DNA of 17,029 bases from Anaerolineales bacterium (GTDB lineage: Bacteria > Chloroflexota > Anaerolineae > Anaerolineales > Villigracilaceae): the NCBI GenBank assembly GCA_025056515.1, contig JANWWB010000051.1, positions 1-17,029 of the forward strand, written 5' to 3'. A model generated the notes under the pieces. The model was not told the origin of the DNA, did no database searches, and saw only the letters and a program-made list of their open reading frames with translations. This document shows, piece by piece, positions 1,383-16,282 of the stretch (position 1 is its first letter; the number at the start of each line of letters is the position of its first letter). The position numbers and the translations under genes were made by a program.

Positions 1383-1838
1383 TTATCGTTTCCAGGGGGG
1401 AGCAATCACCAACAAAACGGCAACGAATGTCTCTGCCAGCAATATCCAGGCCAACAGACTGGCAATAAAGAGCATGCTGGAACTCAAAGCATCCCGTTGG
1501 ATCCAAAGTGCAAACCAGACAACCATTCCACCCAACATCCATGCAAGCATCCATCCCCACTGCCAGCGGCGTGAGGGTTGCCAAAGACGCTTCAGCATCG
1601 TCAGTCCGGCCATTCCACCTACTAATCCTGCTAACGCCCCTGCGAGGGGAAGGAAGAGATATTCTACCGTGGAGATAAGGATATCTAAATCTCCACCACC
1701 TGTCATGGCGAAGACAACAGAAGCTGCAAGCAGGAGAGAAAAACCAAATGCCAAAACAACCGTTGCTATCACGGCTACGAGACCGCTACCCAACCCCACC
1801 AATCCAAAGAGAACCGCGTCATGCCACTGCCGTCTCAT
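1383..1838 (-). CDS. Small multi-span membrane protein, function unknown
   Basis: 151 residues, not recognised as a named family. The sequence shows about four hydrophobic segments: residues about 9-43, 59-82, 94-112 and 119-145. They are rich in Gly, Ala, Leu and Trp, with a short basic loop (RLWQPSRRWQWG) between the second and third. The C-terminus ends in a short basic stretch (PPWKR). There is no catalytic motif. It begins 19 bases after the stop of the preceding small membrane gene and has no clear Shine-Dalgarno, which suggests it is read as the second gene of a two-gene unit driven by the promoter at 2337-2309. A small integral membrane accessory protein is all that can be said. Confidence 0.7.
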   Translation of the reverse strand: MRRQWHDAVLFGLVGLGSGLVAVIATVVLAFGFSLLLAASVVFAMTGGGDLDILISTVEYLFLPLAGALAGLVGGMAGLTMLKRLWQPSRRWQWGWMLAWMLGGMVVWFALWIQRDALSSSMLFIASLLAWILLAETFVAVLLVIAPPWKR

Positions 1839-1857
1839 GCTAAATCATGCCCGAGAT

Positions 1858-2247
1858 TCAACACCCACCCATTCGGATACAACTAGACGAAAACCAAAAG
1901 AATAACAATATAGGCAAAAACACGCAGAGAAAAGAAGCTATCCCCAAGCTAATTCCTATGATAGCGGTGGATTTCGATGTTACATCATCAGGCGAGCGCT
2001 TTCGCAATGACAAAATCCCTAGTAGAATACCAAGCGGCGCAGTTCCCCAAAGACACAAAGGAACAACGTAATTTACAATATTGGATGCTTCCATCCCCAA
2101 CGTTGCCATCAGAACGTTATTCAACACTAAACCTAACACCAGGACTGCCCCACATGGAAGAAGAAAACCGAGAATACCCCCTACGAGACTGGCTTTCGCT
2201 AAAAGATTACCTGTGCCTGGTTGGGGTGGTTGATCTTCCTTTTCCAT
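1858..2247 (-). CDS. DUF4190-like small membrane protein
   Basis: 129 residues. The N-terminus is hydrophilic (MEKEDQPPQPGTGN). Three hydrophobic segments follow, at about 17-48, 62-81 and 94-119. The arrangement LLGILSLRKRSPDDV, then AIIGISLGIASF resembles DUF4190-type proteins, in which a Gly-rich span, a basic loop and a second Gly-rich span follow each other. That family has no settled function. The start is supported by GGAG at 2258-2255, seven bases before the ATG, and by a strong promoter about 60 bases upstream. The C-terminus has a Cys pair (CIRMGGC). Confidence 0.75.
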   Translation of the reverse strand: MEKEDQPPQPGTGNLLAKASLVGGILGFLLPCGAVLVLGLVLNNVLMATLGMEASNIVNYVVPLCLWGTAPLGILLGILSLRKRSPDDVTSKSTAIIGISLGIASFLCVFLPILLFFWFSSSCIRMGGC

Positions 2248-2271
2248 TTTTCAGCTCCAAGAAAGTTTGCA

Positions 2272-2284
2272 ACCTACTAGGTAG
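2272..2284. promoter_or_regulatory. Small palindrome in the 5' leader of the membrane-gene pair
   Basis: CCTAC-TAG-GTAGG: 5-bp arms around three bases, lying between the predicted transcription start (about 2302) and the ribosome binding site. It could be a short hairpin or an operator half-site pair. It is weak evidence on its own. Confidence 0.25.
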
Positions 2285-2308
2285 GATGCTTGTGCCTTAA
2301 TTTGTTAT

Positions 2309-2337
2309 ATTTTAATAAATTTGACCCGTTTTGTCAA
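2309..2337 (-). promoter_or_regulatory. Strong sigma70-type promoter for the membrane-gene pair
   Basis: On the minus strand TTGACA (2337-2332) is followed, after a 17-base spacer, by TAAAAT (2314-2309). The -35 hexamer is perfect, the -10 matches five of six bases and the spacing is optimal. The surrounding sequence is AT-rich. The predicted start near 2302 leaves a leader of about 55 bases before the ATG at 2247, which has a good GGAG ribosome binding site. Confidence 0.75.
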
Positions 2338-2739
2338 CTTAATACTTTGAACTGTGAACTTTTGCGAGAAGAGGAGGATTGGAAGAGAATTTCGTCATTT
2401 TCTAGGAGACCGGAACTAGGATATGAACTTTTGTGAAACAGCGCGATGTTCCGGGTTTTGAAAGGGGATTTTTACACTCTATCTGATATACAACAGGGGC
2501 CGAACAAGCGGTACGAATGGGCGAATGTTGAGATGAGTTCGTTTGCCGTGTTTTTCACCAGAACCTTTCGTTTTTGGTCTACTGTCGGAGTTTGCCAAGG
2601 GGTCGAGGGCGCGCGAAGGAAGGTCAATATATGTGACCCATTAAATCAAGCGATCCCACGCCTCATAAGCCTGTGGTTCTGGCTTTTTTTGGTTCCCCCT
2701 TCAAATAGTTTTTCAAACAAATCTGTCCGAGCATACTGG
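2338..2739. other. Intergenic region downstream of the signalling run, no convincing gene
   Basis: About 400 bases. A 103-codon frame on the plus strand (2446-2757) has no recognisable motif and overlaps the end of the minus-strand receiver gene, so I do not accept it. The region holds a 17-base palindrome-like site GGTCA-7 nt-TGACC at 2622-2638 and a repeated TGAACTTTTG (near 2355 and 2424). A small AAGCC-9 nt-GGCTT hairpin followed by Ts (2667-2690) is oriented for the plus strand only. No clear terminator for the signalling run is visible after 2740 on the minus strand. Confidence 0.5.
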
Positions 2740-3120
2740 CTAACTCTCGGAAGGTAACAGGCCTTCGACTTGCGCCCAAAGCTCACGAATGTTGATGGGC
2801 TTGGCCATGTACACATCGCATCCTGCTTCGAGCGCTTTTTCGGCATCGCCTTTGAGCGCGTTAGCGGTGATGGCGATAATTGGAATGTATGCCAGCGATG
2901 TTTTTTTATGGTGACGCAGACGGCGAGCAATTTCATAACCATCAATATCCGGTAGGTTGATGTCTAACAAAATCAAATCAACGTTTTCGCGTTCAGCGAT
3001 TTCTAGACCTTGTTGTCCCGTTGTGGCCTCTAAGAGACGATAGCCACGGGCTTCCAAGGCTCGTTTGACCAAAAGCATATTATCGGCATTATCTTCAATG
3101 TAAAGGATAACATTGCCCAT
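2740..3120 (-). CDS. Single-domain response regulator (receiver only)
   Basis: 126 residues made entirely of one receiver domain. Visible residues: acidic pocket E9/D10 in YIEDN, phosphoacceptor D53 in LLLDINLPDIDGYE, switch threonine T85 in AITAN and conserved lysine K107 in MAKPIN. All sites needed for phosphorylation are present. The YIEDNxxN opening resembles DivK- and Spo0F-like stand-alone receivers, which shuttle phosphate or act as allosteric partners. It is the last gene of the run, 21 bases after its close paralogue. The ribosome binding site is weak (AGAG). With no output domain, it must act on a partner protein or pass phosphate on. Confidence 0.92.
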   Translation of the reverse strand: MGNVILYIEDNADNMLLVKRALEARGYRLLEATTGQQGLEIAERENVDLILLDINLPDIDGYEIARRLRHHKKTSLAYIPIIAITANALKGDAEKALEAGCDVYMAKPINIRELWAQVEGLLPSES

Positions 3121-3141: not shown

Positions 3142-3528
3142 TTAGGAATGTGAAGAAGACGAAAGATAGGATTCGATTTTTTCGCAGAGAGCAAAGACAT
3201 CAACCGGCTTAGTGATAAATTCTGTGGCTCCGGCTTGCAAAGCTTTTTCCATATCGGAGTGTTGAACATTGGCTGTAAGAATGAGAATAGGAATTCGGGA
3301 GGCATAAGGAAGATGACTTTGACGGATTCTACGGGTCACTTCATAGCCATCAATATCTGGAAGGTTAATATCCAAAAGGACTAAGTCAATCGGTTCGGAA
3401 GTGATGATTTTTAAGCCTTCTTGCCCACTAAATGCCTGGTGTAGGATGAAGCCGCTGCAGTCCATCACACGCTTGATCAGCATCATATTATCTGGATTAT
3501 CTTCGATGTAGAGAATGGTTCTGCCCAT
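3142..3528 (-). CDS. Single-domain response regulator, paralogue of the next gene
   Basis: 128 residues from the ATG at 3528; the frame extends upstream to 3552, but that part overlaps the preceding gene and the internal ATG aligns with the start of the paralogue. Receiver residues: E9/D10, D53 in LLLDINLPDIDGYE, T85 in LTAN and K107 in ITKP. These occupy the same positions as in the 2740-3120 protein, and both begin MG..ILYIEDN..NM, so the pair looks like a tandem duplication. The start lies one base after the stop of the PLP enzyme-receiver fusion, with GGAG about ten bases upstream inside that gene. Tight coupling with the fusion suggests a shared pathway. Confidence 0.92.
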   Translation of the reverse strand: MGRTILYIEDNPDNMMLIKRVMDCSGFILHQAFSGQEGLKIITSEPIDLVLLDINLPDIDGYEVTRRIRQSHLPYASRIPILILTANVQHSDMEKALQAGATEFITKPVDVFALCEKIESYLSSSSHS

Positions 3529-3529
3529 A

Positions 3530-5173
3530 TCATCTGCTCTCCTTCTCCTCAATCGCTTGTACGACCTGTTCTACAAACTTGCGGGGAGGAAGTGATCCTT
3601 TCTGATAGAGAGCTTGAATATGGCCGTTGAGGCGTTCACGTTCTTCTGGGGTAATATCTTTGGCGCTGACGACTACAATCGGAATATGCGCCGTACGTGG
3701 GTCGAGTTTTAATTCTTCAACGAGACCAAAGCCATCAATTCCCGGCATCATAAGGTCTGTAATAATCAGGTCTGGTAATTTCTGGCGGGCAATGGTTAAG
3801 CCTTCCCAGCCATCTTTAGCGCGAAAAACACGATAGGCTTTCCGAGCTTCTAACAGGCGACGGATAAGCAAGGCATCATCATCGTTGTCGTCGATCAGCA
3901 AAACGGTCGTGGCTTTTTCATCCAAATTTTCAAGAGCCGCCTGAAGGCCTTCGCGTGGCGCCGGAGCTTGTCCCTCACTGAGGTGAACATCCACGGCCCA
4001 TTGGTCGCCTAGGACGTGTTTTTCGACTGGGAAAGTATGGCCGGTGCAATTGACAACAACCAACTCCTCTGGAGAAATCACGCCTTGTTTGAGTAGTTTT
4101 TCGAGGCCGGCAAAAGCAACCGCCGCAGCAGGTTCGACAGCCATCCCTTCACTTTTAGCCAGAGCACGCATGGCATCAAAGGCTTGGGCATCGGAGACTG
4201 CTTCCATCACACCGCCGTATTTTTGGGTTATATTCCAAAGGTGGGTGTATGAGGCGCCTGGGTCGCCTGTCGAAAGGATGATGATAGAAGTGTCTGGGAT
4301 GACCGGTTCCGCAACCGATTTGCCGGCCTTGAATGCGCGCACCATGGGAGCACAACCCTCAGCTTGAATGACTGCCAGTTTGGGAATCTGATCGATCAAC
4401 CCCATCCGTAACATCTCTTCAAAGCCCTGGTAGACGCCAATCGGTCCCATGCCACCGCTGACGGACTGGATATACCAATCCGGCGCTCGCCAAGCGAGTT
4501 GCTCGACAATTTCGTAGGCGATGGTCTTCATGGATTCGCGTGCTGGGATGGAATGGGCGCCCCGGTCAAGCAAAAGATGCCGTCGTTGGGCAAATTGGGC
4601 AGCGATTTGTTTGGTTTGATCATAGTTGCCGCTTACTCGGATAACTTCGGCGCCAAAGAGAGCCGCTTCGCGCAGTTTTTCTTGGGGTACTAAGCTTGTC
4701 ATAAATACCCAAAGTTTGATACCTGCGCGTGCGCAAGCGGCCGCATAGGCAACTGCAGCGTTACCCGTCGAGGCAATCACGGCTTCCTTGATGCCGTTTT
4801 CCACCATTGCAGCGACTGCGCTGGCTGCTTGTCGGTCTTTGAAGGAACTGGTCGGGCCGTAGCGCTCATCTTTGATGTATATCCGTGAATGTCCTAGGGC
4901 AGGTGCATAACGTTGAGAAAGCCACAGCGGCGTCCCACCGGCCGGATATAGGTCAATGGCCGAGGGGTTTTCGATGGGAAGGACATCTTGATAGCGCCAC
5001 ATGTTGGCCGGTCGCCCAGGCAAACCGCGCAAAATCTCTCGCTTGAAAGTGGCATAATCGTAGCGCGTCTCCATCCATTGGGCGCCACACCGTTCACATT
5101 TCGGGACGACAAAAGGTTGGTATGGTTGTTGATGATTGCAAGAGGTGCATTCCAAATATAACGGGCGGGCCAT
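3530..5173 (-). CDS. Threonine-synthase-like PLP enzyme fused to a C-terminal receiver domain
   Basis: 547 residues. The N-terminus is a Cys4 zinc ribbon (C9, C12, C26, C29). Residues about 75-395 form a fold-type II PLP enzyme. SSFKDR places the Schiff-base lysine at K112, STGNAA is at 135-140, and the phosphate-binding loop SGGMGP is at 239-244. This layout matches the zinc-ribbon ThrC type (phosphohomoserine to threonine, cytosolic). Substrate assignment is inference: relatives acting on other phosphorylated amino acids look similar. A linker of about 25 residues leads to a complete receiver domain (about 421-541) with D428/D429, phosphoacceptor D473 in ITDLMMPGIDG, S503 and K525. ThrC enzymes of this type are normally about 350-410 residues and lack a receiver. 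The gene starts 3 bases after the histidine kinase stop and ends one base before a stand-alone receiver, so the kinase is the obvious phosphate donor. Regulation of the enzyme by phosphorylation is a hypothesis. AAGGTAA precedes the ATG. Confidence 0.9.
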   Translation of the reverse strand: MARPLYLECTSCNHQQPYQPFVVPKCERCGAQWMETRYDYATFKREILRGLPGRPANMWRYQDVLPIENPSAIDLYPAGGTPLWLSQRYAPALGHSRIYIKDERYGPTSSFKDRQAASAVAAMVENGIKEAVIASTGNAAVAYAAACARAGIKLWVFMTSLVPQEKLREAALFGAEVIRVSGNYDQTKQIAAQFAQRRHLLLDRGAHSIPARESMKTIAYEIVEQLAWRAPDWYIQSVSGGMGPIGVYQGFEEMLRMGLIDQIPKLAVIQAEGCAPMVRAFKAGKSVAEPVIPDTSIIILSTGDPGASYTHLWNITQKYGGVMEAVSDAQAFDAMRALAKSEGMAVEPAAAVAFAGLEKLLKQGVISPEELVVVNCTGHTFPVEKHVLGDQWAVDVHLSEGQAPAPREGLQAALENLDEKATTVLLIDDNDDDALLIRRLLEARKAYRVFRAKDGWEGLTIARQKLPDLIITDLMMPGIDGFGLVEELKLDPRTAHIPIVVVSAKDITPEERERLNGHIQALYQKGSLPPRKFVEQVVQAIEEKESR

Positions 5174-5176
5174 AGG

Positions 5177-7030
5177 TTACCTTGTTCTCTTTTCAACCAC
5201 CTCGGTTGATTTAGCTTTAAGTGGTAGTTCGATGTAGAATACGGATCCTTGTCCGGGTATACCCGCACTTTCAGCCCACATGCGTCCGCCATGTAGTTCC
5301 ACCAGACGACGACTGATGGGCAAGCCCAGACCGGTTCCGCCGACTTTGCGCGTAGTGGATGTATCCACCTGGGAAAATTCTTGAAAGATTTTTTCTAGTT
5401 GGTCTTCAGGAATACCGATCCCTGTATCCGTTACTGTGATCAGAACTTTTTCCTCAGGTACGCGCGCGGCATGGACTGAGACATAGCCTCTTTCGGTGAA
5501 CTTAATGGCATTGTTAACAACATTCAATAGGACTTGCTTGATACGGGTTTCGTCGGCTACGAGAACGACATCGCGCTCTGTATCTGGTTCCAGCATCAGT
5601 GCCAGCCCTTTGCTGTTTGCCATGGGAGTGGTTATATTCAGCACATTTTGAATCAAATCGTACAGATTGAATTGATCGAAATAGAGATTCATTCGACCTG
5701 CTTCAATCTTGGCCATGTCAAGCACATCGTTAATCAGCGCTAAAAGATGTTGGCCGTTTTTCTGAATCAGGCGTAAATCGTTCTCCATCTCAGGGGTTAG
5801 GGGGCCGTCAATGCCTTCCAAGATAACATCAGCAAAACCGAGAATGGAGTTGAGCGGTGTGCGTAACTCATGACTCATGTTGGCCAGAAACGCTGACTTC
5901 AGCCGGTCGAGTTCTTGGAGTTCTAAGGCACGCTTTTGCAATTCTTCTGTTAAACGAACGGTTTCCAAGTGTAAACTTACCTGGGCAGCAATTGTTTGCA
6001 TGAGCTCGGTCATTTCAGGAGACATTTCTTCTAGACCGGCAACTGCCATCTCTCCTATGGGTTCGCCTCGCACCGTCAAAGGAACACTGTAACTTATCGG
6101 ACCAGGTGGTTCTTGTAGGGGTAGGACGCGGTTTAAGTCATATAGAAAAGCCAACGAAGTCTTCTCTTTGTCTTTTGCAAATTCTTGCCAAGATTGACGC
6201 GTGAGGCGACGAGTCGCAGCTTCAGCTTCTGCGCGTGCTCGTGTGGCCTCGGCTAGCAAGCGAAGGTTTTCTGTTTGCTGGGCTAGTTGGCGACTAAGAG
6301 CATGGATAAAAGCTTTATCCTCTTCTGTCAATGGGTATTCTGGGTCAGCCTGAACGGCAATTTGACCAATGTATTCTTCAAGAACTTGTATGTTTGTTTT
6401 GAAATCAACCTCTTCAGGAACTGTTTCGAGCGGCTCTACCGCAGTCTGGTCATATAGAAAGCCAATCCGTTCGTTTTGGTGAATAGCATCCAAGAAGTTA
6501 GCCCAACTTTCATGGACATAGCGCCGCGTGGCTGCTTGTGCCTCAATGCGAGCGCGTTCTGCGGCTTGCAGCAAACGCAAATTTTGAATTTGAAGAGCAA
6601 CTTGACGCGCTAAGGCTTCGGTCAGGGTGATTTCCTCAGAAGACCAACTCTGTTGATGGGGAGGTTCCACAAGGATAGCGCCGATGGACTTATTTTCAGC
6701 GGTCAGAGGAGTATAGAAGGCCCCATGGATATTCAGATTAGAAAGAGGGGCGAGACGCAATGGTTCCAGCTTGCCGTTGCTCCACACGTAACCAATGACT
6801 TCTTTTTCGTAAATACTCACAGGTGAAGTTGGACTTAGGAAACGGTAGCGTTGACGATAGTGCTCAACCGTCTGCAACTGCTCGATTTGAGTTTCCAGTT
6901 CTGTTACGCGGGCGCGCAAAGAGGCAAGCTCTTGCCGCATCAATGTCACGTCAGGATCTGGGTGAAGCAGTAGCTTTTCAATCTCGTCGAATAGTTCTTG
7001 GAGACGATATCTTAGGCGGTCTTCGTTCAT
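5177..7030 (-). CDS. Soluble histidine kinase with repeated degenerate half-GAF modules
   Basis: 617 residues, no membrane span. A coiled-coil-like N-terminus (about 1-62) is followed by three related modules (about 63-157, 168-262 and 273-362), each ending in a helix such as QTENLRLLAEATRARAEAEA. The modules show G(F/Y)(L/V)Y/W..., a PL element and an IGxxxV strand, resembling the second half of a GAF domain. The kinase core is complete: phosphoacceptor H387 in MSHELRTPLNS, N box with N507 in NVVNNAIKFT, G1 DTGIGIP (535-541), F box around F549 and G2 GGTGLGL (564-570). It is the only transmitter in the window and carries no receiver, so its partners are probably the receivers encoded just downstream. 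It starts 12 bases after the six-TM GAF protein, without a visible Shine-Dalgarno, so reinitiation is likely. Signal input is inferred to come through the neighbouring sensors. Confidence 0.93.
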   Translation of the reverse strand: MNEDRLRYRLQELFDEIEKLLLHPDPDVTLMRQELASLRARVTELETQIEQLQTVEHYRQRYRFLSPTSPVSIYEKEVIGYVWSNGKLEPLRLAPLSNLNIHGAFYTPLTAENKSIGAILVEPPHQQSWSSEEITLTEALARQVALQIQNLRLLQAAERARIEAQAATRRYVHESWANFLDAIHQNERIGFLYDQTAVEPLETVPEEVDFKTNIQVLEEYIGQIAVQADPEYPLTEEDKAFIHALSRQLAQQTENLRLLAEATRARAEAEAATRRLTRQSWQEFAKDKEKTSLAFLYDLNRVLPLQEPPGPISYSVPLTVRGEPIGEMAVAGLEEMSPEMTELMQTIAAQVSLHLETVRLTEELQKRALELQELDRLKSAFLANMSHELRTPLNSILGFADVILEGIDGPLTPEMENDLRLIQKNGQHLLALINDVLDMAKIEAGRMNLYFDQFNLYDLIQNVLNITTPMANSKGLALMLEPDTERDVVLVADETRIKQVLLNVVNNAIKFTERGYVSVHAARVPEEKVLITVTDTGIGIPEDQLEKIFQEFSQVDTSTTRKVGGTGLGLPISRRLVELHGGRMWAESAGIPGQGSVFYIELPLKAKSTEVVEKRTR

Positions 7031-7042
7031 GGTTGTGTGAGT

Positions 7043-9514
7043 TTATGACTCTTTGAGACTGAGCTGGACGATGGTGCGTGGAGCATTCAGAGCGCGGCCA
7101 AGTTCTCGAGCAGCAATTTGCAATACTGCTTCCACAGTCGTAGCGCTTTGGATTTTCTGGCTGATAGCGTTGAGCAGAGCTTCGCGCTCGGCTTGCCGTC
7201 GTGCTCGTTCATAGTTGCGAGCATTTTGCAGAGCAGTCGCAACTTGAGCGGCCAAGGTCAATTGGATGTCGATATCCTCTTGACTAAAGGCGCCGACATG
7301 CTCAGATTGCACATCTAGTACGCCAAGCAGCTCATCCCCGATAATCAATGGTATAGCCAACTCAGCGCGCGTTGCGGGGAGGAGAGGATTAGGCAACCAG
7401 CCGGCATCGCTCTGAACATCATTGACCACCACCGACTGTCGAGTACGAGCTGCGCGAGCAACCAAGGATTGTTCCTGGGCTAGGGGGATGATGGTCTCAT
7501 CTATCAGATTTTCGTCTACCCCTTCTGCCCAACCGAAGGCTGTTGCGCGCAAGGTTTCATGTCTGGGGTCGTAGATGTAAATGCGAGTGTGATAAAGATT
7601 GAATTTCTGACGGGTTAGTTGAGCTACTGTTCTTAAGATGCTCTGAATTTCCTGTTCGCGTGAAGCGATGGTACTGATTTCAGCAACGGCTTGGAGCTGC
7701 CTGGCGCGTCGGTCGAGCTCTATTTGACCGCGCTGCGTTTCTTCGAGCAAGCGGATGTTTTCCAAATGGTCACTTAAGCGTTCGGCGATGGTCGTTACCA
7801 ATTCTTTTGCAAACAAATCGTCTATCGCGTCCAGAATGGTTATTTGACCGATTTTTTCTTGTTGGACTATAAGCGGAGCGTTTAGAACGTTTTGTTGGGG
7901 TAGAGAGATAGGTTCAGAGAGTGGTTTGGTCTCTTTTAGGTCATACAGATAACCAAGTGGACTGGCCTTTTCTTTGGCTTGCAGGTATTTCTCCCATCCT
8001 TCGCGCGTGAGACGACGGGCTGCTTCTTCTGCTTGTAGGCGATACCGTTCAGCGTTTTCCAGCAATCGCAAGTTTTCAAGATGTTCAGCTACCCGGCGCG
8101 AAACAGCCTGAAGTAACTCGATGGCTTGTGGTGTTGGCTGATTTTCTTCGAGCTCAACAATCATGGAACCGATTTGTTCTTGTCCGATGGTGATGGGGAT
8201 GCTCAGGCCTTGCAAGTCTTCCGGCGTAGAATCTGCAAGCGGCAGTACCTGATTTTGCTCGAACAGGTAACCAATCTGTTCCGGTTGATGGATGCTGTCC
8301 AAGTATTCTTGCCAGCTTTGGCGTTCTAGGCGGCGAGCGTATGTTTCAGCCTCGCGCCGAGCTTGTTCTGCTTCGACAAGCAAGCGGGCGTTTTGAATAG
8401 CAATTGCCAGTTGACCTGCCAGCGTTTCAAAAGCGGGAAGCATCTCCTCTGTGAGTGAGTAGGGCTCTCGGCTTTGCATATCCAGGACGCCAAGGACGCG
8501 GTCACTTACAATCAGGGGTACAGCCATTTCTGCTCGGGTTTCAGGAAGAAGAGGATTGGGCTTGAAGATCAAGCTTCGGCGCGTATCGGTGATCACCTGA
8601 GATTTTTTCTCAACAGCAGCCGTGCCGTTAATAGATGTGGTATTTAAAGGCAAACGGTGACGGCGTGATTTAAGTATCTTTCCGACCTCTCCTGATCCTG
8701 CATACAACTCAAGGTAGGTTTGGGAGGGGTTTACAAGATAAATTTGTACATAATAGAGCCCAAAACGCTCACAGATACGCTCAACAGCATTTTCGAGCAA
8801 TTCATCGAGTGCGCGTATTTGGGAGATAGTCCGGCCTACTTCAGCGGCAAATTGGATTTCGGTATACCGTATTTGCAATTTTGTTTGAAGGACCTCCAGT
8901 TGTCGTTCGCGTTCCTCGATGACTTTTTGTACCTTGTAAATCTCCTCTAGACGGATTTGTTCCAGATTATTGCGATACCAGGCAAACAGCAGAGTCAGTG
9001 TACCGATTGTGAAGACGCCAAGCAGAGAGGTAAGCATCTCAGAGGATGTAATATTACGAATGAAAAGCAGAGCAATCAGTGTGATTAACAATGCGTTCAG
9101 ATAAATAACGATAGACATCCATTTCAGAGGCAGAAGATTGGTTATGAGATATAAGGTGCTGAACGTCAGGACAATCAACAAGGCAGGATATGGACCACGC
9201 AGCGAGGCGAAGTAAGCTATTCCTAGAAAGCCGGCTAACAAGATCCAAACAGAAATTTGAAAGCGCGGGCTTCGGCTCAAAAGGTAGGCAAGAAAGGTCA
9301 AAGCAGAAAATACCAATGCTGCTACGACCAGGGAAGTGAGATTTTGAGCAACACTGAAGCTGATAACGGCTACGATGAAAGCAATAACAGAAAGGGAAAG
9401 TGAAATTGCTGCATGAATTTGTGCTTGGCGGTAGAGGAAAGGAACTTGAATCTGTGGATGCGGGGCAATGAGGGAGAGAAAAAGATTGCGAAAACGAGAG
9501 GAACGAGCTTTCAT
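7043..9514 (-). CDS. Six-TM sensor with two GAF domains and two half-GAF modules, no output domain
   Basis: 823 residues from the ATG at 9514, chosen because AAAGGA precedes it at good spacing; an upstream TTG at 9574 would add 20 residues. Six hydrophobic spans lie at about 36-57, 60-80, 87-105, 108-130, 135-153 and 160-178, followed by a coiled coil. GAF 1 (about 215-380) ends in PNPLLPETRAEMAVPL and VLGVLDMQS. Two modules follow (about 391-485 and 498-591), beginning RRLERQSWQEYL and RRLTREGWEKYL, of the kind found in the adjacent kinase. GAF 2 (about 605-765) carries PNPLLPATRAELAIPL and LLGVLDVQS. The last 45 residues look like the opening helix and strand of another GAF that then stops. 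There is no kinase, GGDEF or methyl-accepting region. The shared module and the 12-base spacing suggest this protein feeds signals to the soluble kinase. Confidence 0.9.
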   Translation of the reverse strand: MKARSSRFRNLFLSLIAPHPQIQVPFLYRQAQIHAAISLSLSVIAFIVAVISFSVAQNLTSLVVAALVFSALTFLAYLLSRSPRFQISVWILLAGFLGIAYFASLRGPYPALLIVLTFSTLYLITNLLPLKWMSIVIYLNALLITLIALLFIRNITSSEMLTSLLGVFTIGTLTLLFAWYRNNLEQIRLEEIYKVQKVIEERERQLEVLQTKLQIRYTEIQFAAEVGRTISQIRALDELLENAVERICERFGLYYVQIYLVNPSQTYLELYAGSGEVGKILKSRRHRLPLNTTSINGTAAVEKKSQVITDTRRSLIFKPNPLLPETRAEMAVPLIVSDRVLGVLDMQSREPYSLTEEMLPAFETLAGQLAIAIQNARLLVEAEQARREAETYARRLERQSWQEYLDSIHQPEQIGYLFEQNQVLPLADSTPEDLQGLSIPITIGQEQIGSMIVELEENQPTPQAIELLQAVSRRVAEHLENLRLLENAERYRLQAEEAARRLTREGWEKYLQAKEKASPLGYLYDLKETKPLSEPISLPQQNVLNAPLIVQQEKIGQITILDAIDDLFAKELVTTIAERLSDHLENIRLLEETQRGQIELDRRARQLQAVAEISTIASREQEIQSILRTVAQLTRQKFNLYHTRIYIYDPRHETLRATAFGWAEGVDENLIDETIIPLAQEQSLVARAARTRQSVVVNDVQSDAGWLPNPLLPATRAELAIPLIIGDELLGVLDVQSEHVGAFSQEDIDIQLTLAAQVATALQNARNYERARRQAEREALLNAISQKIQSATTVEAVLQIAARELGRALNAPRTIVQLSLKES

Positions 9515-9625
9515 GGCATATCCTTTTACAACTTCTTTTACGGTAAGCGATATCAATTCAGGATGAGTTGGCAAACGTTCTTTTCTATAGGATGGAATTT
9601 GAAGGAGAAACTTGTTGGGAATCTC
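9515..9625. other. Intergenic spacer between two sensor genes
   Basis: About 110 bases with no kinase motif in any minus-strand frame, so the lack of an output domain in the upstream sensor is not an obvious frameshift. No good -35/-10 pair is visible; the downstream gene is probably read through. Confidence 0.45.
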
Positions 9626-11098
9626 TTAGTTAATCTGTTTTCTTTCAAACGGCGCAACGAGCTTGATCAAAATGCGCTTAGCGCCTAAAACTTGACTGGT
9701 TTCACGGAGAGCAGTCTGTAAAGTTTCTTGTATGGTGTGAGTGTTTTGAATGCGCTGCCCGATATAGTTGATGGTGGCCTCTAGTTCGGCTCGCGTCGCT
9801 AATTCCGTGTAGATTTGAGCGTTTTGCAGAGAAATGGCCACCTGAGCTGCTACGGACTGCAGTAGGGCTACGTCGTCTTCGGTCAAACCGTTGATTCGGT
9901 TTTGTTGTACGTCGAGTACCCCTAGAACTTGCTCGCCCAAAAGGATAGGTACAGCAGCTTCAGATTTTGTCTCCGGTAACAAAGGATTGGGTAGCCAACC
10001 GATAGCCTGAGAGACATCCGGTACAAGGATGGGGGTTTTGGTCGCAGCAGCTCGGCCAACTAAACCTTGTCCACGGTGGATTGTGTGACCTGCGGCCAGC
10101 ATGGCAGCTCCGGCTTCTCCGGTGCCACCGGCCATTATCAAGTTGCCTGTTGTCTTGTCCAGAAAGTAAATGTGGGCATGATAGTAGCCAAAGGCGGCTT
10201 GTAGCTCTTTTACTACGTCTGTAGCAAGCATATTCGGGTCGGTTGCGGCCGAGAGGCGGCGACTGATTTCCAGCAAAGTTTGTAATGCTTTTGTACGTTC
10301 TTGTACCCGTTGTTCCAAGGAAGTAACGAGGCTTTGTAAGCTTTCAGCCATCGTGTTGAATGTATTCGCCAGTAAACCCAATTCGTTTTGGCTCTTGAGG
10401 GGTACGCGCTGGCTTAGGTTGCCTTTCTGAATAGCAGCAGCTGCTTCTGTCAAGAGAGTAATTTGCTTGAGGCTGAGTTGCAGGAGTATGAGGATGCCCA
10501 AAACGACTATACCACTCACAACGCTTGCCAGCACGGTTTGAACTTGGACGCGATTGGCGATTTGCGTTTGTCGTTCTGAAGATTGACGGATACGGTCTGC
10601 TAAGAACTCGGAGAGAGCTTGTTGTTCCTGTCGAAGAGCATCAAGGGAGGAGAAGATTTGCACAGTCAGGCGATTGGTTTCACCGACAGAAAGAGAAGGG
10701 GCATCGAGTAAACTTTGTACTTGAGGTCTAAGGTTCATGTAGAAGAGCGAAGCTAGTCGTGTTTGAACGATTGCTACTTCAGGATCATCGACCTTCCCGA
10801 TTTCGAGAATGGCTTGTTCTAATCCTTGCATTTCATTGAATACGTTCTCGCGCTGTTCTGCATTTCTGAAGAGGATATATTTTTCTAAGTGGGCGTCCAG
10901 TGCAATTAAGTGCAGGAGGATGTGTTGCCCCTGCTGTTGCAAGATACTATCCTGGTAGATTTTCGCGGAAAGTGGCTGAATTTGGTTCAGCTGAATTAAA
11001 GTCAAAGCAGAGATTGCAAAACTCAAAAGGACGATAAGACCAACACCCGCCGAAATTTGGCGTCGTAGGGAAGAACGGAAGTAATTGATGATCTGCAT
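9626..11098 (-). CDS. Membrane sensor: TM, extracytoplasmic domain, TM, HAMP, GAF, no output domain
   Basis: 490 residues from the ATG at 11098; GGAG sits six bases upstream, better than the in-frame GTG at 11122. TM1 is at about 15-37, TM2 at about 190-212. Between them is a predicted helical extracytoplasmic domain of about 150 residues, of the four-helix-bundle kind. HAMP follows (about 210-263, with NLSQRVPLKSQNELGLLANTF), then a coiled coil and a GAF domain (about 275-430) with FGYYHAHIYF, GGTGEAG, GLVGRAA, PNPLLPETKSEAAVP and VLGVLDVQ. The protein ends with the 45-residue tail shared with the two other sensors (about 437-482). There is no transmitter domain. The binding-protein lipoprotein is encoded immediately upstream, so this sensor may be its partner. 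Confidence 0.92.
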   Translation of the reverse strand: MQIINYFRSSLRRQISAGVGLIVLLSFAISALTLIQLNQIQPLSAKIYQDSILQQQGQHILLHLIALDAHLEKYILFRNAEQRENVFNEMQGLEQAILEIGKVDDPEVAIVQTRLASLFYMNLRPQVQSLLDAPSLSVGETNRLTVQIFSSLDALRQEQQALSEFLADRIRQSSERQTQIANRVQVQTVLASVVSGIVVLGILILLQLSLKQITLLTEAAAAIQKGNLSQRVPLKSQNELGLLANTFNTMAESLQSLVTSLEQRVQERTKALQTLLEISRRLSAATDPNMLATDVVKELQAAFGYYHAHIYFLDKTTGNLIMAGGTGEAGAAMLAAGHTIHRGQGLVGRAAATKTPILVPDVSQAIGWLPNPLLPETKSEAAVPILLGEQVLGVLDVQQNRINGLTEDDVALLQSVAAQVAISLQNAQIYTELATRAELEATINYIGQRIQNTHTIQETLQTALRETSQVLGAKRILIKLVAPFERKQIN

Positions 11099-11200
11099 AT
11101 TCGACTCCACGAAAAATTTCACAGTTCAAATGCTCACCAGAGTCTTGACCAAGGAAACTTCTAAAAGCACGCGGTAGAGCAGTTTTTTAGTACACCTCAC

Positions 11201-12187
11201 CTATTGAATAATCTCTGCATTTTTTAAGAGAGAGGGAGGTAGGATGATTTGCAATTTTTCTGCTAAAGACAAGTTAAGGATCAAGCGGCCACGTTTGTTT
11301 TGGGCGATTGCAATCTGGTTCACCGGAGTCCCCTGCAATATCTGTAAGGCTGTTTGGGCAGCCCACTCTCCTTGTTCTTCGGGTAACTTGGCCAGCGTAG
11401 CCAAGACGTAGGGGGCCATCCAAGGGTTGACGGAGATCGTAGGAACGGTCGTGTGTTCACGGAAAAATGTCTTCATGGTGGTTTCATCCCAGTCGGGAGC
11501 GCCAGCATTATTTAACACAATCAAGATGTCGTTTTCTTGTTGTGCTTGCAAGAAAAGTTCCATAAATTCGGTTTGCGTTTTAGGCCAGTAAACATTCATG
11601 GCACCATTGAAAAAACGAGAATTATAGATGCCGGCAATTTTACGCTCGGTCTCTGTATCTATTGAAATGAAGCCGATACGCGAACCACGGGCATAAGGCG
11701 ACACCATTTCGATCAATCGGTCAATTAAATCCACCTCGATCATGCCGGTCACATTCGGAGCCGGATACTTGTATTCACTGACACTCCAGTTGACGCCGGC
11801 AAAAATGACAGGTAGCTCGGTTCCTTTTAGGTAAGGGAGAACCAGGCACTTTTGGGCGTTATCATCGGTCGCAATCACGACATCGGGTTGAAAGGTTTGA
11901 ATCGTTTGCCAAGCTTGTTGACCAGCCTGTTGGCACAGGTCTGGATTGCGCTTTGTATCCATACGGAAAATTTCAAGTTGTGCCCCGCTCGGTTCTAGGA
12001 TGGAACGCAAACCGCGCTCGATCCCATCCGACCATTCATAGCCGGCGTGGTAAGAATCAACCCACAGTATTTTTCGCCCTGAGAATTCTGCAGTTACTTC
12101 CTGAGTTGGTATATTCTCAGGGGTAGGAACTGCAGCGCAAGCTACCAGTCCGAAAAGTAGAAAAATATAGCAATAGAAACGCCACAT
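11201..12187 (-). CDS. ABC-type substrate-binding lipoprotein (PF04392-like), sensor-associated
   Basis: 328 residues from the ATG at 12187, preceded by AGGAG at good spacing; that site overlaps the TAG of the upstream gene. The long upstream extension of the frame overlaps the sensor gene and is rejected. The signal peptide has lipobox LVAC with C17. The mature protein opens with a beta strand, KILWVDSYHAGYEWSDGI, followed by alternating strands and helices (DVVIATDDNAQK, LPVIFAGVNW, GSRIGFISID, ENDILIVLNNAG). This is typical of two-lobed periplasmic-binding folds of the ABC_sub_bind family. The ligand is unknown. No permease or ATPase gene is nearby, and it lies between two membrane sensors, so ligand sensing is more likely than transport (inference). 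Confidence 0.88.
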   Translation of the reverse strand: MWRFYCYIFLLFGLVACAAVPTPENIPTQEVTAEFSGRKILWVDSYHAGYEWSDGIERGLRSILEPSGAQLEIFRMDTKRNPDLCQQAGQQAWQTIQTFQPDVVIATDDNAQKCLVLPYLKGTELPVIFAGVNWSVSEYKYPAPNVTGMIEVDLIDRLIEMVSPYARGSRIGFISIDTETERKIAGIYNSRFFNGAMNVYWPKTQTEFMELFLQAQQENDILIVLNNAGAPDWDETTMKTFFREHTTVPTISVNPWMAPYVLATLAKLPEEQGEWAAQTALQILQGTPVNQIAIAQNKRGRLILNLSLAEKLQIILPPSLLKNAEIIQ

Positions 12188-12197
12188 ATGTTTGCTC

Positions 12198-13961
12198 CTA
12201 CGATCTCCCAATCTCACCAACCGAAGAAACATTTGGAGACTGAAGTTGGATATAGACACGTTTCTTGCCCAGTTCTCGACCGAGCTCACGCGCTGCAACT
12301 TGGATTGCTGCTTCGGTGGTGGTTGTGTTGACGATTGCCTGCCCAATACGGTTGAGGGCAGCTTGAAGTTCGGCTCGACGACGCGTTTCTTGTTCGGCTT
12401 CGTAACGGGCTGTAATATCTGTAATCACGGCGCTAAGCATAGGTCTGCCGGCACGGCTGGGAGCAGGCGTTAGGCGTATTTCTGCGCGGAACTCCCTCCC
12501 ACCAGCCGAACAGTGTATCCACTCAAATTGAGCAGTCCCTTCTTGTAGAGCTTGTTGGATTCTTTCACGAGCCGCTTCTGCAGAAGGGCGGCCATCTGGC
12601 TGGTATTCGGGACTGAGCGCAATTGGGCCGATTGTTCCAATGGCCTCAGGACCTAATTCAAACAATTCCAACATCGGCGGATTGGCTTGTACAAACACCC
12701 CATTTTCAGCGTCCAGAATAGCAATTGCGACTGGGGAATATTCGATGAGCTGCTGGTAATCGTTTAGCAAGTTCTGTACTTCTTCGGTTGCGCGAATGTT
12801 TTCCAAAGCAATGCCAACTTGATCGGCTACCGTAGAGATGAGCAAAACGTCCAGTTCGTTTAGACTGCCCACTTGGTCGTTTTGCACGTCAAGAACTCCC
12901 AGAACGCGCTCGCCTACCACAATAGGAACAGCTATCTCTGCGCGTGTTTCGGGTAACAAAGGATTAGGAAGCCAATCCGGATCCAAGCTTGTATCAGGCA
13001 CCAAGACAGCTTGTCCGGTTGTTGTGGCGCGTCCAACCAGACCTTTTCCACGAGGGATACGATGGCCGCGTTCCAACAAGGTCTTCCCTACTTCGCCCGT
13101 CCCGCCAACCATAACCAAGTTTTCTTGGTTGGGATCCCAGAGGTAAATATGAGCATGATAGTAATTGAAGGCATTTTTGAGCTGTTCAACGACTTCATGG
13201 ACAATACTGGCCTGGTCACGTAGGGCAGAAATGTGCTGGCTGACTTCAGCGGCGAGTTGCAAAGCTCGAGTTCGGTTGGCGAGAGCAGTTTCTAGCTCCC
13301 TAAGTTGGCTCTTTCGTAGTAGAAATGTGTTTCGTTCGATTCGTAGATATAAGAAGCCGGAGGTACTAATGACTAGGATGAAAACGATCCCGCTCGCAAG
13401 CAGGAGCAAGCGGGAAGTTGTTTGCTGTTGGAGCAGAGCGCTGAACTCAAGAACAAAATTTCGCTCTTGGATATCATAAGCGCGCTTTACCAGTTCTTCA
13501 TCCATTCGGCGGAACTGTTCTTGAAGATCATGACGTGCTTGCAAGCGCTTTGATAGGGACGGAGATACACCTAGGGAAAGCATATAGTCGTCATAGGCCT
13601 CTAATTCTGCTTGGAAGGCGCTCATCTTCTCAAGAACTTCACTTCCCGGAGGAAGTAAAGGCAAGAGGACGCGCATTTGAGAGCTGAGAAAAGCGCGTTG
13701 CCTTTCGATTTGTTCCTGTCCTGTTGTGGGATCGCTCAACCAACTCATCGTATAGGCAAAGAGCAGATTCGTGTGGCGTTGGATGTTGCTTAAGGTGATC
13801 AAAATTTCTGCTTGGTCATTGAAAAATTCTGTGCTGTTGCGCCAAAGCGAATATTCGCGAAACATCAAAAATGTAAAGCCGAATGCAATCAAGAGCAGGA
13901 TCGCAATCCCAAACATTTGTAGAAAAGATGGTCTCCAGCGGGGTAGGTCTCTGGTATTCAT
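12198..13961 (-). CDS. Membrane sensor: TM, extracytoplasmic domain, TM, GAF, PAS, no output domain
   Basis: 587 residues from the ATG at 13961, with GGAGG close upstream. TM1 is at about 14-35, TM2 at about 184-207; the helical extracytoplasmic region between them is about 150 residues. A coiled coil leads into a GAF domain (about 235-392) with FNYYHAHIYLWD, GGTGEVG, GLVGRAT, PNPLLPETRAEIAVP and VLGVLDVQ. A PAS domain (about 400-520) shows LIEYSPVAIAILD, FVQANPPMLELF and the closing ITDITARYEAEQ. The final 45 residues are the tail shared with the other two sensors. No transmitter or nucleotide-cyclase domain follows. It starts inside the stop codon of the lipoprotein gene (ATGA), so the two are coupled and probably interact. 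Confidence 0.92.
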   Translation of the reverse strand: MNTRDLPRWRPSFLQMFGIAILLLIAFGFTFLMFREYSLWRNSTEFFNDQAEILITLSNIQRHTNLLFAYTMSWLSDPTTGQEQIERQRAFLSSQMRVLLPLLPPGSEVLEKMSAFQAELEAYDDYMLSLGVSPSLSKRLQARHDLQEQFRRMDEELVKRAYDIQERNFVLEFSALLQQQTTSRLLLLASGIVFILVISTSGFLYLRIERNTFLLRKSQLRELETALANRTRALQLAAEVSQHISALRDQASIVHEVVEQLKNAFNYYHAHIYLWDPNQENLVMVGGTGEVGKTLLERGHRIPRGKGLVGRATTTGQAVLVPDTSLDPDWLPNPLLPETRAEIAVPIVVGERVLGVLDVQNDQVGSLNELDVLLISTVADQVGIALENIRATEEVQNLLNDYQQLIEYSPVAIAILDAENGVFVQANPPMLELFELGPEAIGTIGPIALSPEYQPDGRPSAEAARERIQQALQEGTAQFEWIHCSAGGREFRAEIRLTPAPSRAGRPMLSAVITDITARYEAEQETRRRAELQAALNRIGQAIVNTTTTEAAIQVAARELGRELGKKRVYIQLQSPNVSSVGEIGRS

Positions 13962-14527
13962 CGAACCTCCATGCTCTCGATATTCCAAATCATCAGATCT
14001 CGATACACGCTTTGGTCAATTTCCGGGAATTGATCAAAGGGAAAGATAATCCGAGTTGGACCGTTTTCGCTGACGGCCATGTATTTTCCATCGGCTTGAG
14101 TGGCTAGCAGGATGGGCCATTTCCGGATTTCTTGGAGAGTAATGTCTACTTCGTAGTCATCCAAGGCGACAAAATGGACCAGTTCTGCATCCTCTGCGGC
14201 CTGAATGATTTCGAGGAAATCGCTCATTAACACGCCGCGGTAGGTGACTACACGTTTCAGCCAAGGGTCGTTGAGTTCGTATTCCACCAAACCGAATTTT
14301 TCGAGAGTTTCCATATCTAGGAGCAACAGGTCACCACTGTTTCGGCTGCCAATTTTCCCACTGACCGTTAGAATGACTTCGCCGGTGGGCTTGGGAAGGA
14401 TATCGCCTGCTTGGAACATCGGCTGTGAAACGCGCCGGTAGGTTTGAGAAGCCTGCGATTCACACGCTACCCCTACCACCAGGAGAAGAAAACAGGTTAA
14501 GAGGGTGAAAACAAACCAGCGGTTCAT
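13958..14527 (-). CDS. Lipoprotein with molybdopterin-oxidoreductase-like domain lacking cysteine
   Basis: 189 residues from the ATG at 14527, with AAAGGA at good spacing; in-frame codons further upstream would run into the preceding gene. The signal peptide has lipobox VGVAC with C22. The mature domain shows EVILTVSGKI, then LLLLDMETLEKF, TYRGVLMSDFLEI, VHFVALDDYEVDI and GPTRIIFPFDQ, a pattern like small proteins of the PF00174 (sulfite-oxidase molybdopterin-binding) fold. True enzymes of that family ligate molybdenum with a cysteine; here no cysteine remains after the lipobox, so catalysis is not expected. A sensory role next to the GAF/PAS sensor, with which it overlaps by four bases, is my inference. 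The fold assignment is moderately sure. Confidence 0.75.
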   Translation of the reverse strand: MNRWFVFTLLTCFLLLVVGVACESQASQTYRRVSQPMFQAGDILPKPTGEVILTVSGKIGSRNSGDLLLLDMETLEKFGLVEYELNDPWLKRVVTYRGVLMSDFLEIIQAAEDAELVHFVALDDYEVDITLQEIRKWPILLATQADGKYMAVSENGPTRIIFPFDQFPEIDQSVYRDLMIWNIESMEVR

Positions 14528-14584
14528 TGTTGTATCCTTTCTAAAAAAAGAATGGACGCGTTTTATGAAGAAGACAGGCTTGTA

Positions 14585-14602
14585 GGTCGATGTTTCTCGA
14601 CC
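14585..14602. repeat. Short inverted repeat between operon genes
   Basis: GGTCGA-6 nt-TCGACC, 6-bp perfect arms, in the 140-base spacer upstream of the lipoprotein gene. No T-run follows on the minus strand, so it is not a terminator. It may be an RNA hairpin that adjusts expression within the run, or chance. Confidence 0.3.
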
Positions 14603-14667
14603 GTCCATGTTTGGCTTTTGCCGGGATGCAAAATCGAGCGCAGATTCGGAGGAGGCTAGGAAGGACT

Positions 14668-16035
14668 TCATTCCGTTGTTTCTGTAGGTGGAGTGGACTG
14701 ACCATTTATCTGCAAGTTCCAAGCTTCTGCTAACGGTTGGCTTACCAATTGCAAGATGGTCTGTAGAAGCCGGCGGTGTTCGTCTTCAAAGTAACCCTTT
14801 TTCTCATGTGTGAGGGCTAGAAATCCTCGCAGAGTGTGCTGAGGTTGTAGGAAGGCTAGGACGGCCGAATGCGATAAGTCTCCTGGTGTGAGAGGCCAAT
14901 CTGAGTGCTGGCGTACATTTTCAATAACAACACCTTCAGGATGGCGAAATTGCCAGTCCAGAAGCGGAAGCCATTCAGGACGAGGAGCTTTTTGGTCAGT
15001 GACCTGAGGCCAATCCTTGTTCCAGATTTGAACGAACGTCTCTTTAGGGGTTTGGATACATAAGCAAGCTTGCCAGGCGTCTAGAGTTTCTGCAGTGCGG
15101 TGTAGAAGGAATTCGGATAAAGCCGGGACGTCGCGTGGTTGATTGACTCGCTGTGCTATGTCCAGCAATAGATTCAATTCTTTTTGGCGTCGTTGCATTA
15201 CGTCCCAGTTGATTTTGTCGCGTAGCCGAGCGCGGACACGAGCCACCAATTCGCGTCGGTCGAATGGTTTGGTGAGGTAGTCTGCGGCTCCTAGGTTGAG
15301 AGCATATTGCAAATCCACCGGGTCCAACCGAGCAGCCGTCACGATAATGATTGGGATGTGTTTAAGCGTTGGGTCGGCTTGTGCGCGCTCTAAAACTTGA
15401 AATCCGTCCATTTCGGGCATGCTCACATCAAGCAATACCAAATCGGGACGCTCTGTATGCAATGTTTGCAGGGTTTCTAGGCCGTCGGATGCAGTCAACA
15501 AATCATAGTCTTCTTGTTGTAAGTAACGTAGTAATAGAGCAAGGTTGTTTGGGTTATCATCAGCAACGAGGATTTTGAAACGAGCTTCCGACTTTTGTGG
15601 AGCAGCTAAAGGAGTAGTTGGCTGGACGTTATCTAGCAAGCGTTGAGCTAACTGGCAAATCCGTTCCGGAGAGAAGGGCTTGATTAAGACTTCGCTGACT
15701 TTCATGCGTCGTGCGCTTTCGCGCAAGCCGGGAATATCATAGGCGGTGATGATGATGGAGTGAAAACGATTTCCGGGCGATTGCTGACGCAACTGTTCAA
15801 TCAGCTGAAAACCATCCATCCCCGGCATGATCAAGTCGGTGATCAGCAAGTCGATTGAGCGCCCTTGGAGTTGTTGGATAGCCTGATTGCCGTTATTCGC
15901 AGCAAGGACTTCCCATTTAGGGTTAATGCGCGCCAGGGCACGCCCTAAGGTCTCAGCTGTCCCGGGGTTATCGTCTACGATCAGGATTCGCCCCTCGATC
16001 AATTCGGATGAAGGAACAGAAGAATCGGAAGTCAT
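14668..16035 (-). CDS. Double receiver-GAF signalling protein (REC-REC-GAF)
   Basis: 455 residues. Receiver 1 (about 15-135) has D21/D22, phosphoacceptor D67 in ITDLIMPGMDG, T97 and K119. Receiver 2 (about 153-272) has D159/D160, D203 in LLDVSMPEMDG, T233 and K256. Both sets look functional. A helix then leads to a divergent GAF-like domain (about 285-440) with WQACLCIQT, VVIENVRQH and LRGFLALTHEKKGYF. No DNA-binding, kinase or cyclase domain follows. It is the first gene of the signalling run, downstream of the palindrome-rich intergenic region. It may act as a phosphate sink or as a scaffold that integrates two phosphorylation inputs. AGG precedes the ATG at about five bases. Confidence 0.9.
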   Translation of the reverse strand: MTSDSSVPSSELIEGRILIVDDNPGTAETLGRALARINPKWEVLAANNGNQAIQQLQGRSIDLLITDLIMPGMDGFQLIEQLRQQSPGNRFHSIIITAYDIPGLRESARRMKVSEVLIKPFSPERICQLAQRLLDNVQPTTPLAAPQKSEARFKILVADDNPNNLALLLRYLQQEDYDLLTASDGLETLQTLHTERPDLVLLDVSMPEMDGFQVLERAQADPTLKHIPIIIVTAARLDPVDLQYALNLGAADYLTKPFDRRELVARVRARLRDKINWDVMQRRQKELNLLLDIAQRVNQPRDVPALSEFLLHRTAETLDAWQACLCIQTPKETFVQIWNKDWPQVTDQKAPRPEWLPLLDWQFRHPEGVVIENVRQHSDWPLTPGDLSHSAVLAFLQPQHTLRGFLALTHEKKGYFEDEHRRLLQTILQLVSQPLAEAWNLQINGQSTPPTETTE

Positions 16036-16087
16036 ATTACCTGCCTGGTGCTATTCTTTTTGCGTCTTGATTGTTTATGTGTATAGG

Positions 16088-16108
16088 TTTGTTCGTCAAT
16101 CGAACAAA
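16088..16108. promoter_or_regulatory. 8-bp inverted repeat, probable operator or hairpin
   Basis: TTTGTTCG-TCAAT-CGAACAAA, perfect 8-bp arms, 53-73 bases upstream of the REC-REC-GAF start codon. A 10-bp perfect palindrome TGATCGATCA follows at 16112-16121. The location and symmetry fit a dimeric regulator, possibly the response regulator encoded just upstream (inference). Confidence 0.45.
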
Positions 16109-16111
16109 GGC

Positions 16112-16121
16112 TGATCGATCA
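16112..16121. repeat. 10-bp perfect palindrome
   Basis: TGATCGATCA, three bases beyond the inverted repeat at 16088-16108. It may be part of one composite site, or a chance palindrome, since such 10-mers are not rare. Confidence 0.3.
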
Positions 16122-16240
16122 AGCGACAAGAGAGTCGTTCACATAATTATTTTGGTCATTCTTTGGACAAGAGTGGTTTGGAATGGGTTGGAAACGTTAG
16201 AGAAAGTTGGTTGTCCCCCTAAGTTTCAAACGTATGATCC

Positions 16241-16266
16241 AAATCGTGCGCTCAAATCGTGCGCTC
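16241..16266. repeat. Exact 13-bp tandem duplication
   Basis: AAATCGTGCGCTC occurs twice head to tail with no mismatch, flanked on both sides by CGTATG (16231-16236 and 16267-16272). It lies 17 bases downstream of the response regulator stop. Direct repeats with a 13-base period could be a tandem binding site for an OmpR-family regulator, whose sites are often direct repeats of about 10-11 bases, or a recent slippage duplication. Confidence 0.6.
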
Positions 16267-16282
16267 CGTATGGGCAATTTTT

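Follow-up and report, generated by a model that had tools for sequence, protein, structure and literature searches.

Response regulators are known above all as proteins that act on DNA, alter cyclic-dinucleotide levels or work through protein contact. Receivers attached to standard metabolic enzymes have been seen in bacteria as well, and receiver-enzyme fusions of narrow range have been described in archaea (PMC5847659, section 14, which cites Galperin 2006 and 2010 on response regulators with enzymatic output domains). No PLP enzyme is named in section 14 of that source, and "pyridoxal" is absent from the main text. The gene described here has in common with these enzymatic-output response regulators a receiver carried on an enzyme near a histidine kinase; it differs from the systems of that source, as far as they are set out there, in having an N-terminal fold-type II PLP enzyme and a C-terminal receiver, in being spread over several classes of one phylum, and in occurring in two types of operon. 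Placing a receiver on a metabolic enzyme is an arrangement of a kind already known, whereas a PLP-enzyme output with such a spread, two operon types and a traceable kinship of its receiver was not found in the literature searched. Nor was any description of a threonine synthase-receiver fusion found in that literature, whose coverage is missing most subscription papers.

The window, the whole stretch of 17,029 nucleotides that was analysed (Anaerolineales bacterium, contig JANWWB010000051.1), holds the fusion gene, its parts and its neighbours at the following positions.

3530..5173, minus strand: fusion gene (zinc ribbon, fold-type II PLP domain and receiver), 547 aa, single open frame
5087..5149, minus strand: putative zinc ribbon, residues 9-29 (C9, C12, C26, C29), from a CxxC...CxxC pattern
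4040..4942, minus strand: PALP domain, residues 78-378 (PF00291, Pfam, E 4.9e-69)
4838-4840, minus strand: PLP lysine K112, conserved in 181/181 sequences
3911..4003, minus strand: linker, residues 391-421, with an EGLxxAL motif, from conservation in 44 sequences
3539..3904, minus strand: receiver domain, residues 424-545 (PF00072, Pfam, best stretch 424-513, E 2e-16)
3755-3757, minus strand: candidate phospho-acceptor D473 of the receiver, conserved in 181/181 sequences
5177..7030, minus strand: 617-aa histidine kinase with GAF, HisKA and HATPase_c domains and no receiver; gap of 3 bases to the fusion downstream
3142..3528, minus strand: stand-alone receiver 1, 128 aa, starting 1 base after the fusion
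2740..3120, minus strand: stand-alone receiver 2, 126 aa, 21 bases past receiver 1
7043..9574, minus strand: GAF-domain protein, lying upstream of the kinase with a gap of 12 bases
9626..11122, minus strand: HAMP-GAF protein, from the domain scan
11201..12346, minus strand: protein with an ABC_sub_bind (PF04392) match, a possible ligand-binding part
12198..13988, minus strand: GAF-PAS protein, a possible sensor

A sequence-only reading of this DNA had described one unbroken frame with ribbon, PLP domain and receiver. Pfam recovers PALP and Response_reg within the 547 aa product, and K112, STGN (135-138), SGGMGP (239-244), D428/D429, D473, S503 and K525 all lie at the positions first claimed. 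The pattern of C9, C12, C26 and C29 suggests that this segment binds zinc. The same reading had the gene wedged between the sole histidine kinase of the run and two stand-alone receivers, with gaps of 3 and 1 bases, and this arrangement was confirmed: positions 5174-5176 separate the fusion from the kinase, a single base separates it from receiver 1 (ATG at 3528), both receivers lie beyond it, and a scan of 14 window proteins showed no kinase other than 5177-7030. Domain scanning detected no kinase domain in the upstream GAF, HAMP-GAF, PF04392 and GAF-PAS proteins of the window, which plausibly constitute the sensory part; the GAF-domain and HAMP-GAF proteins probably belong to the same operon as the kinase. 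Towards the far end of the window, 14668-17014 encodes a GAF protein with two receivers and, right at the edge, a Trans_reg_C response regulator whose listed frame is without the start of its receiver. A protein with a weak Oxidored_molyb match (13958-14722) separates this GAF protein from the GAF-PAS protein.

Residue conservation was scored over 181 fusion sequences, which fall into two subfamilies: A, to which the window member belongs (149 sequences), and B (32 sequences). In the PLP half, K112, S135, G137, N138, D203, E213, M215, K216, S239, G240, G243, P244, E347, P348, G378 and H379 are invariant (181/181), residue 377 is T or S throughout, the STGN loop is intact in all but one sequence, and the zinc-ribbon cysteines are kept in 181/181 except for one gap at C9. 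This half carries the signature of a fold-type II PLP enzyme, namely a PALP domain with the PLP lysine and the cofactor loops. The receiver is likewise invariant at D429, D473, A504 and K525 (181/181), with D or E at 428 and S or T at 503, and the response-regulator signature of acidic pair, phospho-acceptor Asp, T/S and Lys is present in full. The conserved lysine of receivers usually occurs in KP; that of the fusion sits in QKG. Within the linker, E408, G409, L410, A413 and L414 are at least 90% conserved in 44 sequences, and linker pN is 0.00-0.105 in four pairs with the window, synonymous sites there being too saturated for a ratio. Nonsynonymous change is low in both the PLP and the receiver parts (window versus L119: pN 0.059 and 0.065, pS 0.74 and 0.72, respectively), and pN/pS ratios are only rough because synonymous sites are near saturation in most pairs.

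Both domains are present in 120/120 and 120/120 of the matches listed by two protein searches, each list including the query. The combination of PF00291 and PF00072 in one protein recurs widely, so the fusion is not unique to this assembly. Among the 80 of 497 relatives listed in a search with exact A-type peptides, 4 aligned over residues 1-545, and each carried Anaerolineae or Anaerolineales in its title. Counts taken from the best-E and match rows of genome scans place the fusion in 73 of 101 near genomes, the source genome included (the remaining 28 have no match better than about 1e-52), and in 42 of 400 genomes spread over Chloroflexota: 25/25 of the same family (own genome included), 4/11 of the same order, 6/19 of the same class and 7/345 further out. 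Three candidates were scored per genome in the 400-genome scan, and identity among the rows listed drops from 47% for the weakest full-length fusion to at most 39% for stand-alone proteins. The fusion is genuine; a product of chance or assembly is ruled out by the recurrence of both domains in the listed matches, by their occurrence in many genomes and by the conserved linker. It was not found in five of ten other congeneric genomes (G003, G004, G006, G008 and G010; 70-96% complete), nor in G013, a same-family genome that is 99% complete. The system is dispensable, since these five congeners are without it and an A member occurs in only one of the ten (G007, where it is cut by the contig end).

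A members are 65-100% identical to the window protein, apart from L186, an A member with 51%, and B members are about 46-55% identical. For the fusion of Herpetosiphon aurantiacus DSM 785 the identity is 65%. The source genome holds one of each, the window member and a B member (G000:C154, locus L139). The latter, at 1411-3102, is a fusion of 564 aa with both domains, situated behind a kinase and before an EamA-type transporter. Neighbourhoods were mapped for 63 loci (31 A, 32 B). A same-strand kinase lies within 150 bases upstream in 30/31 A loci, and in the remaining one the contig begins within the fusion; GAF proteins also recur upstream in many A loci. A stand-alone receiver is found downstream in 31/31 A loci, and a stand-alone PLP enzyme, absent from the window, in 16/31. 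Such enzymes after A operons (L121 6133-7320 and similar) have the pocket motifs SFKAR and GGGTGL. A small sulfur-carrier gene between the fusion and the neighbouring PALP gene was considered and rejected, locus maps showing a receiver there instead. In L186 (7175-9304, minus strand) the protein has 710 aa and two receivers after the PLP domain, with a stand-alone receiver still downstream.

In B loci, a same-strand kinase is located within 4 kb upstream in 28/32 (none within that distance in L152, L184, L185 and L197), and its catalytic core is usually some 400-1100 bases from the fusion because receivers follow the core in the same protein (scanned in L144 and L181). An EamA-type transporter lies downstream in 25/32 and a stand-alone receiver in 1/32. 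A ParA-like ATPase gene is present within 8 kb upstream, ahead of the kinase, in 18/32 B loci (e.g. L144 2151-2936). Overall, the neighbourhood count gives a kinase upstream of 58/63 fusion loci, compared with a same-strand kinase within 4 kb upstream in 1/20 canonical ThrC control loci (at 3.1 kb), so that the same domain order does recur beside kinases elsewhere.

Clues to the origin of the receiver came from a midpoint-rooted tree of 190 receivers from fusion neighbourhoods. One group of 64 tips (support 0.865) unites the receivers of 62 fusion proteins with two kinase receivers, those of L188 and L190. The next larger groups, with weak support at some forks (0.34-0.50), add terminal kinase receivers (23/26 in all) and the second receiver of L186, and contain no stand-alone or DNA-binding-regulator receiver. 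Outside the fusions, the tip closest to each of the 62/62 fusion proteins is the terminal receiver of a kinase. Six whole genomes were also scanned with one B receiver (from G278). The top match in each was the genome's own fusion, and in 5/6 the next-best was the receiver inside the kinase immediately upstream (113 bits versus 80 for the next in G278, with a small margin of 78 versus 73 in G017); in the exception, G180, the second-best receiver belongs to an unlinked protein. The closest kin of the fusion receiver are the terminal receivers of hybrid kinases beside B members, and the simplest account would be that a copy of the kinase's final receiver became attached to the following gene before A and B diverged. 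A kinases are without such a terminal receiver, with 30/30 kinase cores ending within 150 bases of the fusion.

The best five of the nearest solved structures are all threonine synthases (first E 1.6e-42), and many listed homologue records bear that name. Like ThrC (TIGR00260; PDB 1uim, 2zsj, 2d1f), the fusion belongs to the same fold family and has the PLP lysine motif SFKDR and the STGN loop; unlike ThrC, it has replaced phosphate-site residues, an added receiver and, for the window protein, a score just under the cut-off. The pocket was compared with that of the Thermus threonine synthase (1uim) in two alignments, of 40 and 17 fusion rows. On the cofactor side, the fusions retain K61 and S84-N87 of the Thermus enzyme and have T or S at the position of T317. 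Opposite T88 they have A or V. Residues N154, S155, R160 and N188 of 1uim, which we take to be those binding the substrate phosphate, are kept in none of the 40/40 and 17/17 rows, the alignment near 155-160 being uncertain by 1-2 positions. Residue 204 of the fusion, R in most rows and otherwise M, K, L, T, A or Q, stands opposite N154, and D203 opposite Val153; S155 is matched by G205 or residue 206, N188 by G240, and R160 by residue 211 (A, S, T, G or P), many members having Arg or Lys at 212. The likeness to known phosphohomoserine enzymes holds on the cofactor side and breaks down at the aligned phosphate site.

Against the thrC cut-off of 167.1 bits (TIGR00260), the window protein scores 166.4, L144 160.2 and the Herpetosiphon PLP segment 167.7. 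PRK08197 ("threonine synthase") is the best-scoring NCBIfam family for the window protein, yet its 253.5 bits are under the cut-off of 303, and the pocket motif of the fusion is SGGMGP, not GGGTGL; PRK08197 resembles the stand-alone PALP enzyme beside 16/31 A loci (575 bits in L121, the one scanned). Similarity to cysteate synthase (TIGR03844; PDB 9k3c) is weak over the PLP domain, 129.6 bits versus a cut-off of 324.9, and the window protein is under the cut-off for all 25 NCBIfam families listed of 115 matches. In a tree of 36 PLP-domain rows, the 15 from fusions cluster together (100/100) to the exclusion of all unfused rows. Four groups of stand-alone threonine-synthase-like proteins lie outside this cluster, and the branch between it and ThrC is long and has full support. 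L186 keeps A from clean monophyly, A being one group in 24% of bootstrap trees.

The source genome does contain a stand-alone threonine synthase, for which the sequence-only reading had suggested looking: a canonical ThrC with the Thermus motifs (G000:C394). A close canonical ThrC (at least 55% identity) is present in 26/30 genomes tested; none at that identity was found in G012, G027, G049 and G217, where the fusion or another paralogue could therefore do that job. The fusion as sole threonine synthase is ruled out for the source genome by G000:C394, though not for all genomes. The suggestion that it is this cell's threonine synthase is not supported, given the replaced phosphate-site residues, the missed NCBIfam threonine-synthase cut-offs and the canonical enzyme elsewhere. 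Because the residues taken to hold the phosphate are replaced and a separate canonical ThrC is present, threonine synthase is probably the wrong name for the fusion, in which cofactor chemistry has probably been kept and the substrate changed. This suggests that many database "threonine synthase" entries of this shape do something else.

We consider the fusion to be probably a two-component response regulator with a catalytically competent PLP-enzyme output under the control of the kinase. Direct two-component control, as first proposed, remains the best reading because the fusion recurs, key residues are kept in both domains and a histidine kinase recurs upstream; the threonine synthase identity is the part left unsupported. 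The conserved covalent link, the adjacent kinase, the ancestry that the receiver shares with kinase receivers and a phosphorylation site that is still intact likewise argue for kinase control of the enzyme. The kinase (5177-7030) would sense signals, perhaps gathered by the GAF, PAS and binding proteins of the same run, and would hand phosphate to D473, upon which the receiver, via the EGLxxAL linker, would alter how active the PLP domain is or how it oligomerizes. That domain would be catalytically competent and no longer in a threonine synthase role, its chemistry being probably an elimination or replacement on an amino acid without the phosphate of phosphohomoserine. Since the enzyme-receiver fusion adjoins a kinase, an outside signal may tune amino-acid chemistry directly, with gene expression unchanged; if so, this widespread, conserved system would offer a clear example from nature of metabolism controlled directly by the environment, through a kinase acting on a PLP enzyme of amino-acid type. 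Counted against this reading are the four B loci without a kinase, the G180 exception, the small margin in G017, the weak forks of the receiver tree, the dispensability of the system and the QKG context of the lysine.

The replaced threonine-synthase substrate residues and the stand-alone receiver downstream in 31/31 A loci would also fit a PLP domain serving as scaffold or as the ligand sensor that the sequence-only reading had offered as its alternative; an amino-acid ligand bound there would set the receiver's uptake or passing of phosphate, and the stand-alone receivers would be the true outputs. We regard this as unlikely: a mere sensor would not need the PLP lysine kept in 181/181 sequences, the STGN loop in all but one and T or S at 377, the kept lysine and cofactor loops argue against a dead enzyme, and B loci mostly have a transporter in the receiver's place (EamA in 25/32, a receiver in 1/32). 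That the protein is, as annotated, a working threonine synthase to which a regulatory receiver has been added is harder still to credit in view of the replaced phosphate-site residues, the window protein's scores below all 25 NCBIfam cut-offs listed of 115 matches, the close canonical ThrC in 26/30 genomes and the long, fully supported branch; in favour of this reading are the five best solved structures and the many records so named, the Herpetosiphon segment at 167.7 versus 167.1 bits, the 4/30 genomes without a close ThrC, and the Arg or Lys one position off the replaced R160 in many members. Every listed member joins the two domains in a single chain, and the linker motif is conserved, which makes it very improbable that the fused receiver merely drains or relays kinase phosphate while the enzyme is active independently, even if the ancestry shared with kinase terminal receivers and the window's ratio of three receivers in trans to one kinase point that way.

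A more specific form of the preferred reading, a PLP enzyme switched by its kinase, can be put forward only tentatively and is on the doubtful side: the enzyme would make a small amino-acid-derived molecule, exported in B by the EamA-type transporter, and its receiver would have come from the C-terminus of the kinase and been welded to the neighbouring enzyme. The B product may leave the cell, because a transporter of an exporter-containing family adjoins the enzyme. If this were true, a signal would enter and a metabolite leave with the transcription step absent. The system is open to testing in culture in a distant carrier, the isolate Herpetosiphon aurantiacus DSM 785 (G200); the first 3000 bases of the second contig of that genome are 100% identical to plasmid CP000876.1.
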